Positions 29,508-35,197 of a stretch of DNA of 64,000 nucleotides are shown here, piece by piece. The stretch lies in contig JAFAWQ010000043.1 in assembly GCA_019241645.1 (NCBI GenBank), positions 186,001 through 250,000 on the forward strand. Direction: 5' to 3'. The first letter of the stretch is position 1. Every line of letters begins with the position of its first letter. Origin of the DNA: Alphaproteobacteria bacterium (GTDB lineage Bacteria; Pseudomonadota; Alphaproteobacteria; Micropepsales; Micropepsaceae). The notes under the pieces were generated by a model. It saw nothing but the letters and a program-made list of their open reading frames with translations. It was not told the origin of the DNA and made no database searches. The position numbers were made by a program, and so were the translations under genes.

Positions 29508-32396
<2,889 letters not shown>

Positions 32397-32571
32397 CGGA
32401 CTCAGTAAGGTTTCTTGGTATGGCGCAAATGCGGACGGTGCTGGCGCCCCTCGATGCGTCAACGCCACGTTGAAAGTAACATGCGGGTATCCGACTCCGC
32501 GCACTGGCGCGACTTCCAGAAATGGTGGCGAACACGCAGCTTTGCAAGCATCTTTTGTTTCACCTATCAAA

Positions 32572-32586
32572 GAACATAGTAAGAAC
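32572..32586 (-). promoter_or_regulatory. LexA (SOS) box upstream of uvrA
   Basis: GAACATAGTAAGAAC on the plus strand reads GTTC-N7-GTTC towards uvrA, the alphaproteobacterial LexA operator. It also contains TACTAT, a possible -10 element, on the uvrA strand. It lies 176-190 bases upstream of the uvrA start, and about 94 bases before the divergent acyltransferase gene. Which gene(s) it controls is inferred from the known SOS role of uvrA. Confidence 0.75.
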
Positions 32587-32679
32587 AATTTGTCGACGGA
32601 ACACTGAAAAGTTCATGTCGCGGCCGATGGGCAGCGGAGCAGGTCAGGCGTTAGTATTGAACCAGACGAAAGGCAAAGG

Positions 32680-34641
32680 TTGTCCCGCAATACACTGAGC
32701 TACCGCCCCGACATCGACGGTCTGCGAGCGCTCGCCGTGGCCGCAGTGGTGTTGTTTCACTATCGGGTGCCCGGTTTCAGCGGCGGTTTTGTCGGCGTCG
32801 ATATTTTCTTTGTCATCTCCGGTTATTTGATCACAAGTCTGATCCTCAAAGAGACATGCGCGGGCCGCTTCTCATTGCGGCAGTTTTACGAGCGGCGCAT
32901 CCGGCGCATCGTCCCCGCCCTGTTCGCCATGCTGGCGCCGGCAACGATGGCCGCTGCAATCCTGTTTTTCCCGGCCTCATTCGCGCAATTCGGCAAATCG
33001 CTGCTCGCAACGGCCTTCTTTTCCGCCAACTTCGAATTTTGGCGCGAGGTGGGATACTTCGATGTATCCGCCGATCAAAAGCCGCTTCTCCACCTCTGGT
33101 CGATCGCGGTGGAGGAACAGTTCTATCTCATCTTCCCTGCGCTGCTTCTGTTCTTCGGTGCGCGATCCAGGCTGCGTCTGACCGTGGCAATCGGCACCAT
33201 ATTCGCCGCTTCGCTGGCTTTCAGCATCTGGAGCGCGGGGCATGCCCCAGCCGCAGGCTATTACATGCTTCCGTCGCGCATGTGGGAGTTGATGCTCGGG
33301 GCGCTTCTTGCCATCGGCGCTGCCCACGTTCCTGCAAGATTGAAGTTGAATGATCTGACGTCGCTGGGTGGGCTGGTGCTCATCGCCTACAGCGTGTTCC
33401 GCTATTCATATGCGACACCATTTCCGGGCTCGGCTGCGCTTGTCCCGTGCCTGGGAACCGCACTGATCATCGCAGCAGGGGATCGTGCCGCTTTCAATCG
33501 CGCGCTCAGCCTAAGGCCTATCATGTTCGGCGGCCTGATCTCGTATTCGCTCTACCTGTGGCACTGGCCGGTCTATGTATTCGCCCGCGCGGCGATGTTC
33601 CGCGCTCCGACCGCAACCGAAACCATTGTGCTGATCGCTACTTCGGTTGCGCTGTCCGTGCTGTCGTGGCGCTATGTCGAGCGGCCCTTTCGCGACCGCA
33701 GTTCCCGCTGGCCGTGGCCCGCTGTTTTTCAAAAAGCGGGGATCGCAATGGCTGCGACGGTGGCTTGCGCCGCCATTCTCGTGCTTGGAAATGGCCTGCC
33801 GCAGCGCTTTAGCCCTCAAGTCCGCGCAATTCTCGCCGAGGCTTCCGATCACGAATCACACATGAGTGAGTGTTTCGGGCTCACGGCAGACGATGTGCGC
33901 AAGGGGCGGCTCTGTCCGATTGGCGCTAAAGTTCAAGAAGCGAGCTTTATTTTGTGGGGCGACTCCCATGCCGACGCACTGATCCCGGCAGTGCAGAGCG
34001 TTGCGAGGCGGCAGGGGCGAGGCGGCCTGTTCGCCGGCACGGACAGTTGTCCGCCCTTGCTTGGCGTCAAGCGCGCCGATACCAGCAAGTGCGCGGCTTT
34101 CAACGATGCCGTGGCGAAAATCGCGACCAGCAAGTCCATCAAAGAGGTCATTCTGGAAGCCCGCTGGGCCAAGAACGCCGAAGGCACATCGTTCGGCCAG
34201 GAGCCACCCGATCGCGTGCGCATCTTCGACGATCTATCGGAAGGCCGTACGGAAGACGAAACGCGGGCGGTGTTCTACCGGGGACTCGAACGAACGGTGC
34301 GTGCGCTTACTGGTGCCGGCAAGAAGGTGGTGCTGGTCGCTTCTGTCCCGGAGGTAGGCTTCCCGGTGCCCGCTTACCTCGCGCGCGCCCAGATGACCAA
34401 TCCGTCAACACGACTAACGACCCGGGCGGGCGCGTATCGCGAGCGGCAGAAATTCGTGTTGTGGGCGTTTGCACAAATGCGCAAGCGCTTCGGCGCGCAG
34501 GTTGTCTATCCCGATCGGGTGCTTTGCAGTCTAAGCGCCTGTCGAGTCGCGCTTAATGGCCGGCCACTCTATCGCGATGCGCATCATCTGAGCGTTTTTG
34601 GTGCCAACCAGTTGGTGCCGCTGTTCGCCTCAGTGTTCTAA
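32680..34641 (+). CDS. OafA/YrhL-type acyltransferase with C-terminal SGNH domain
   Basis: The 653-residue protein starts with TTG after AAAGGCAAAGG. Residues ~8-380 are an acyltransferase-3 membrane domain (YRPDIDGLRALAVAAVVLFH, FVGVDIFFVISGYLIT, FYERRIRRIVPALF, LHLWSIAVEEQFYL). The C-terminal ~250 residues are an SGNH hydrolase-like domain with WGDSHADALIP and the catalytic Asp-His block DAHHLSVFGANQL. Such proteins O-acetylate surface glycans such as O-antigen or exopolysaccharide, passing the acetyl group to the periplasmic side. It sits between uvrA and ssb, each with its own LexA box, an unusual place, and could modify the polymer made by the 1-22 kb locus. Confidence 0.9.
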   Translation: MSRNTLSYRPDIDGLRALAVAAVVLFHYRVPGFSGGFVGVDIFFVISGYLITSLILKETCAGRFSLRQFYERRIRRIVPALFAMLAPATMAAAILFFPASFAQFGKSLLATAFFSANFEFWREVGYFDVSADQKPLLHLWSIAVEEQFYLIFPALLLFFGARSRLRLTVAIGTIFAASLAFSIWSAGHAPAAGYYMLPSRMWELMLGALLAIGAAHVPARLKLNDLTSLGGLVLIAYSVFRYSYATPFPGSAALVPCLGTALIIAAGDRAAFNRALSLRPIMFGGLISYSLYLWHWPVYVFARAAMFRAPTATETIVLIATSVALSVLSWRYVERPFRDRSSRWPWPAVFQKAGIAMAATVACAAILVLGNGLPQRFSPQVRAILAEASDHESHMSECFGLTADDVRKGRLCPIGAKVQEASFILWGDSHADALIPAVQSVARRQGRGGLFAGTDSCPPLLGVKRADTSKCAAFNDAVAKIATSKSIKEVILEARWAKNAEGTSFGQEPPDRVRIFDDLSEGRTEDETRAVFYRGLERTVRALTGAGKKVVLVASVPEVGFPVPAYLARAQMTNPSTRLTTRAGAYRERQKFVLWAFAQMRKRFGAQVVYPDRVLCSLSACRVALNGRPLYRDAHHLSVFGANQLVPLFASVF

Positions 34642-34643
34642 GG

Positions 34644-34673
34644 TTGACCGCGGCGCGAGAACAGAATAGGAAC
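34644..34673 (+). promoter_or_regulatory. ssb promoter with overlapping LexA (SOS) box
   Basis: A perfect GAAC-N7-GAAC box (GAACAGAATAGGAAC) spans 34659-34673. A good -35 (TTGACC, 34644-34649) lies 17 bases before TAGGAA (34667-34672), a weak -10 inside the box, so LexA binding would block RNA polymerase. The box ends 80 bases before the ssb start codon and the -35 begins 3 bases after the acyltransferase stop. Confidence 0.75.
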
Positions 34674-34753
34674 CATGTGGACCGATTGCCGTTGCGGTGG
34701 CGGCAGCCGCGGCAGGACAGCTAGGGTGTGTACAGGCATCCGGGAAGGACAAG

Positions 34754-35197
34754 ATGGCAGGAAGCGTCAACAAGGTCATTGTTGTGGGAAATCTCGGGCG
34801 GGACCCGGAAACTCGACGCCTGACGAGCGGCGATCCGGTGGTCAATCTCTCGGTGGCCACCTCCGAAAGCTGGCGTGACAAGACAAGCGGCGAGCGCAAA
34901 GAAAAGACCGAATGGCACCGGGTGGTAATCTTCAATCCCAACCTCGCCGACGTCGCCGAAAAATACTTGCGCAAAGGCTCCAAGGTTTACATTGAAGGCC
35001 AACTCACCACGCGCAAATGGACCGACAAGGATGGTCAGGAAAAATATTCGACCGAGATCGTGCTGAACCGCTTTCGCGGGGAATTGGTGCTTCTGGATGC
35101 TCGCGGCGAAGGTGCAGGCGGTGGGGCTCGCATGGCCGGGTCGGAGGCGCCCCAAAGCTTTGACCGCAACGATCTCGAAGACGAAATACCCTTCTGA
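34754..35197 (+). CDS. ssb: Single-stranded DNA-binding protein
   Basis: The 147-residue protein has the OB fold start SVNKVIVVGNLGRDPETRRL, then TEWHRVVIFN and KGSKVYIEGQLTTRKW, and ends with the acidic tip DLEDEIPF that binds partner repair and replication proteins. The ATG at 34754 follows GGGAAGGACAAG, a good ribosome site; the frame opens further upstream but those residues do not match the family. The linker between fold and tip is short, giving a total length under the usual 160-180. Confidence 0.95.
   Translation: MAGSVNKVIVVGNLGRDPETRRLTSGDPVVNLSVATSESWRDKTSGERKEKTEWHRVVIFNPNLADVAEKYLRKGSKVYIEGQLTTRKWTDKDGQEKYSTEIVLNRFRGELVLLDARGEGAGGGARMAGSEAPQSFDRNDLEDEIPF

Follow-up and report, generated by a model that had tools for sequence, protein, structure and literature searches.

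An AT3-SGNH acyltransferase gene separates uvrA and ssb, each beside a putative LexA operator, in an alphaproteobacterium

The window analyzed here is the whole 64-kb stretch of DNA. Near its middle, positions 32397-34753 are the exact interval from the uvrA ATG (32396, minus strand) to the ssb ATG (34754), and a gene for a membrane acyltransferase is the only substantial gene in that interval (Table 1; start codons throughout are predicted). The N-terminus of uvrA is kept across relatives, as judged by sequence comparison. A preliminary description of this DNA had placed an exact GAAC-N7-GAAC box on each side of an OafA-type gene. The sequence and coordinates of both boxes are correct, and the gene between them is an intact AT3-SGNH (Acyl_transf_3 plus SGNH) acyltransferase. 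The uvrA-side box is 175 bp from the start of uvrA and 93 bp from that of the acyltransferase.

Table 1. Genes and putative regulatory elements at the uvrA-ssb junction
Feature	Position	Strand	Description
uvrA	29508..32396	-	962 aa, ATG at 32396; Pfam UvrA_DNA-bind and UvrA_inter
uvrA-side LexA box (putative)	32572..32586	+	GAACATAGTAAGAAC; exact GAAC-N7-GAAC
AT3-SGNH membrane acyltransferase	32680..34641	+	653 aa, TTG start; Pfam PF01757 and PF19040
TTGAC, probable ssb -35	34644..34648	+	3 bp past the acyltransferase stop, 15 bp before the ssb-side box
ssb-side LexA box (putative)	34659..34673	+	GAACAGAATAGGAAC; exact GAAC-N7-GAAC, 80 bp upstream of ssb
ssb	34754..35197	+	147 aa, ATG at 34754; Pfam PF00436

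The acyltransferase (ACYLTRANSFERASE) has the AT3 motif DGLRALAV...FHY and the SGNH motifs GDSHA and DAHHLS, so that the AT3 R and H and the SGNH GDSH and DxxH motifs are all intact. PF01757 matches residues 11-330 and PF19040 residues 405-650, both above cut-off; a sequence search of the PDB gave no match. The protein has the same PF01757-PF19040 fusion, with motifs intact, as the OafA-type AT3-SGNH acyltransferases (PMC7448272, PMC9558356). Unlike those, its gene sits between SOS repair genes.

The LexA motif of alphaproteobacteria has been given as GTTC-N7-GTTC (PMC3323433) and as GAAC-N7-GAAC (PMC2248561), which are the same site on opposite strands. By itself, the bare motif proves nothing, because its counts are near chance in both the window and the genome. 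The window has three copies of GAAC-N7-GAAC (at 760, 32572 and 34659), against 2.00 expected from shuffles, in line with the earlier estimate of about two matches per 64 kb, and at least three matches were found in 38 of 100 shuffles. Genome-wide, the host has 74 matches, compared to 65 for the reversed pattern used as a control, and the motif is thus barely enriched. The third window match (760-774), absent from the preliminary description, has an ill-fitting spacer. With a PSSM trained without the window (training range 19.9-24.9), it scores 5.4, versus 22.2 for the box at 32572 and 18.6 for the box at 34659, and we reject it as a chance match. A refined pattern, GAACADANNRNGAAC, has eight matches in the host genome and none in the reversed control; its second spacer position was relaxed from W to D to accommodate the G in the window ssb box. 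Two of the eight are the junction boxes. The significance of these boxes rests on position, spacer and conservation, not on raw count.

The host has the machinery that such boxes would need. It has one lexA (TIGR00498, above the curated cut-off) with an exact box, GAACCTTAGTAGAAC, 12 bp upstream, and GAACTAAAGTAGAAC is upstream of lexA in all 12 relatives examined. Another box, GAACATAAAGTGAAC, precedes a 229-aa ORF by 16 bp; the next gene encodes an IMS-domain (ImuB-type) polymerase, and the two look like imuA-imuB. Only degenerate boxes were found at the host recA. One relative, G025 (99% complete), has a box at uvrA-ssb yet no detectable lexA.

LexA-like boxes also lie beside restriction genes. 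The best-scoring one in the host genome (GAACATATAAGGAAC, 23.5, G000:C15:23201-23215) is 41 bp upstream of a gene for a 1058-aa Type ISP/IIG restriction enzyme-methylase (L300:158-3334; G000:C15:23257-26433), which suggests that this restriction system is under SOS control. The host also has another Type IIG restriction gene (L301; G000:C2:34900-37902), broken by a stop, with GAACTTATAGAGAAC 28 bp upstream. A homologue in G027 (L306) has GAACATATACGGAAC upstream, and the comparison gives, for G004 (L308), one beside its lexA. No exact box was found at the five other homologues examined (L304, L305, L309, L316 and L323).

What makes the junction boxes convincing is comparison of the uvrA-ssb region in about 30 congeneric genomes, in which contigs of MAGs may be incomplete. 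An exact box is present within 350 bp upstream of ssb in 29 of the 32 genomes covered by the ssb-box count. The other three (G020, G024 and G061) have no ssb box, though each has lexA with its own box, and this counts against the explanation that we favor below. The 12 compact genomes have uvrA and ssb separated by 175-310 bp, with one shared exact box lying between the two genes. In 13 split genomes, the pair is ~1.1-8.1 kb apart, with widely differing cargo and one box by each repair gene (in G026, counted here, uvrA itself is off the contig). All 41 boxes at the locus have the same orientation, on the ssb strand. They represent 24 distinct sequences and have a common spacer: A (G twice), A/T, A, N, N, purine, N. 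Farther away the pattern fades. A wider sample covered 29 uvrA loci, 28 of them in other families and one in this genus. Only six have an exact box, in both orientations, so conservation of the box is strong only near the genus.

Could both boxes be chance matches to an 8-base motif? The window count is at chance level and the bare motif is hardly enriched genome-wide, as this explanation would predict. It has to face, however, boxes that are conserved across the genus with one orientation and one spacer consensus, the eight-to-zero result for the refined pattern, and the boxes at lexA and imuA. The cross-species data refute it as a whole, and we give it almost no credence. Because of conservation, orientation, spacer, and the pattern of one shared box or one per side, the two window boxes are very likely the LexA operators of uvrA and ssb. 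The earlier proposal that both boxes are real is thus borne out by the relatives, and at the junction an exact GAAC-N7-GAAC direct repeat does lie upstream of an SOS gene.

The ssb-side box has the geometry of a standard repressor site, covering the expected -10 element. Of 29 ssb-side boxes, 15 are preceded by TTGA at a distance of 16-18 bp, often as GGGGATTGACT. A scan of the junction for sigma-70 promoters and terminators gave nothing beyond chance. Since there is no convincing terminator between the acyltransferase gene and ssb, transcription could possibly read through from one into the other. The induction of ssb in E. coli is only moderate (PMC3323433), and SOS regulation here may therefore be weak, which also counts against the explanation favored below.

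The uvrA-side box lies between two divergent genes. We assign it to uvrA on four grounds: its spacing, its presence beside other neighbors, the unlinked acyltransferases, and its loss in one close relative. The box is 80-199 bp from the uvrA start whatever gene adjoins uvrA, and it is present without any acyltransferase in G006, G019, G028, G029 and G032. In genomes with the acyltransferase, the distance from box to uvrA start is 80-175 bp (mean 121, sd 29; the host, at 175 bp, is rather far out, which counts against our explanation), and the distance to the acyltransferase start is 91-377 bp (mean 154, sd 85). No exact box was found upstream of any of 20 acyltransferase genes of the family located away from uvrA in related genomes.

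The nearest relative, L009, has the same gene order, with 97% identity in the uvrA N-terminus and 77% in the acyltransferase. No box is present between its uvrA and acyltransferase genes, a further point against our explanation; the acyltransferase gene is kept, and so is the ssb-side box, as GAACACAATAAGAAC. The preliminary description had named relatives with the same layout and no boxes as evidence against its proposal. L009 is such a case for the uvrA-side box only. This locus is on a 3.2-kb contig (JAICYR010000260.1) with an alphaproteobacterial uvrA-acyltransferase-ssb arrangement in a MAG labelled Acidobacteriaceae, probably a binning error.

A single uvrA-side box could possibly control both divergent genes. 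If it were a common operator, LexA would repress uvrA and the acyltransferase together, and DNA damage would raise acylation of surface glycans. Several observations fit. At every uvrA-linked locus except L009 the acyltransferase has the box upstream, and in 9 of the 11 loci measured its start is 91-148 bp away; the GAAC orientation agrees with the direction of the acyltransferase gene, and four relatives have other surface-type genes (MBOAT, FkbM) in boxed units. However, the box has the same orientation where other genes or ssb adjoin uvrA, its distance to the acyltransferase varies more than its distance to uvrA, and at the box there is no conserved TTGAC promoter element directed toward the acyltransferase. 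L009 has the gene and lacks the box, and no unlinked acyltransferase has one. The box does not track the acyltransferase rather than its neighbor, as membership in the SOS regulon would call for. We therefore consider a common operator rather unlikely. The earlier suggestion that the acyltransferase is under the first box gains no support beyond position.

The four relatives just mentioned (G015, G016, G018 and G036; loci L164, L159, L161 and L165, respectively) have an interval with genes for an MBOAT acyltransferase, a middle gene with no match in a PDB sequence search, and an FkbM methyltransferase. The MBOAT Pfam match was obtained in G015 and G018, and the N-terminal sequence is common to all four. 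The MBOAT gene begins 52-58 bp from the ssb-side box, the end of FkbM overlaps the start of uvrA, and in all four a degenerate box (AAACAAAAAGAGAAC and variants) is ~29 bp upstream of FkbM. These genomes probably have a non-repair gene inside an SOS-boxed uvrA unit. Further cargo at the locus includes genes for a PMT-type glycosyltransferase, sulfotransferases, a DUF4403 protein, a berberine-bridge enzyme and a PIN protein. One could propose that the SOS response of this genus has captured cell-surface modification, with AT3-SGNH sharing the uvrA operator in one set of lineages, and MBOAT and FkbM in LexA-boxed units that lead into uvrA in another. We think this improbable. If true, DNA damage would alter the glycans of the cell surface, and one use of such a change could be to keep phage out. 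Our literature search returned no paper tying LexA to a host-encoded surface acyltransferase; the matches were phage and prophage papers.

The acyltransferase gene itself appears to be an old resident. It is under purifying selection: compared to L009, dN is 0.15-0.16 and dS is 1.3-1.8 (dN/dS ~0.1). All 13 uvrA-linked acyltransferases cluster together (support 0.93), and the other sampled acyltransferases fall outside this clade. The count of linked genes may include near-duplicates, since a species represented among our genomes may also have contributed some of the database loci. The formation of one clade argues against a fresh insertion. In the uvrA+ssb tree, many of whose nodes are weakly supported, the compact genomes do not group apart from the split ones, and this interleaving implies several losses, or gains, of the interval. 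That interleaving, together with the variable cargo, is what one might expect if the acyltransferase had recently inserted into a compact pair and duplicated its box. Against this, the linked acyltransferases form a single separate clade and always adjoin uvrA, a pattern that suggests one old arrival and later losses, and no integrase was found among the Pfam-scanned cargo genes. A recent insertion is, we believe, quite improbable.

Arrangements of this kind have precedents. Tapias and Barbe reportedly described, in 1999, divergent uvrA-ssb promoters in Sinorhizobium meliloti. The two genes are divergent there as well as here; in contrast, the pair here is split and has two boxes. In gammaproteobacteria, a divergent uvrA-ssb pair has one common LexA site, and in Vibrio fischeri and others a phage insertion split the pair, with independent LexA sites kept for both genes (PMC3323433). 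The locus described here is like that of the Vibrionaceae in that divergent uvrA and ssb are interrupted by inserts with a separate LexA site per gene. It differs in that the vibrio insert is a bacteriophage and the box gammaproteobacterial, whereas here the insert is an AT3-SGNH gene and the box an alphaproteobacterial direct repeat.

Based on these comparisons, we favor, with a probability of roughly 0.7, the explanation that here the alphaproteobacterial uvrA-ssb SOS pair has been split by an old AT3-SGNH gene, with a separate LexA operator for each repair gene and the acyltransferase as a bystander. The conservation, position, orientation and spacer of the boxes, the lexA gene with its own box, and the conservation of the acyltransferase gene are all read directly from sequence. 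We infer that LexA binds at these boxes and represses, and that the acyltransferase is not strongly induced. LexA at 34659-34673 would block the ssb promoter by overlapping its -10 region, and LexA at 32572-32586 would repress uvrA. DNA damage would lead to RecA-stimulated cleavage of LexA and the release of both uvrA and ssb. The acyltransferase most likely would acylate an exported glycan and be expressed mainly independently of damage, and the uvrA-side box would affect it, if at all, only as a bystander.

A split uvrA-ssb pair with both LexA sites is already known in the Vibrionaceae, and the present locus is very likely an alphaproteobacterial instance with a different insert. It indicates that in Alphaproteobacteria, as in vibrios, uvrA and ssb each keep a LexA site when genes intervene. 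Because the genus includes both compact and split relatives, and surface-modification genes recur at this one SOS junction, it is a natural test of whether neighbors of SOS genes become damage-inducible.
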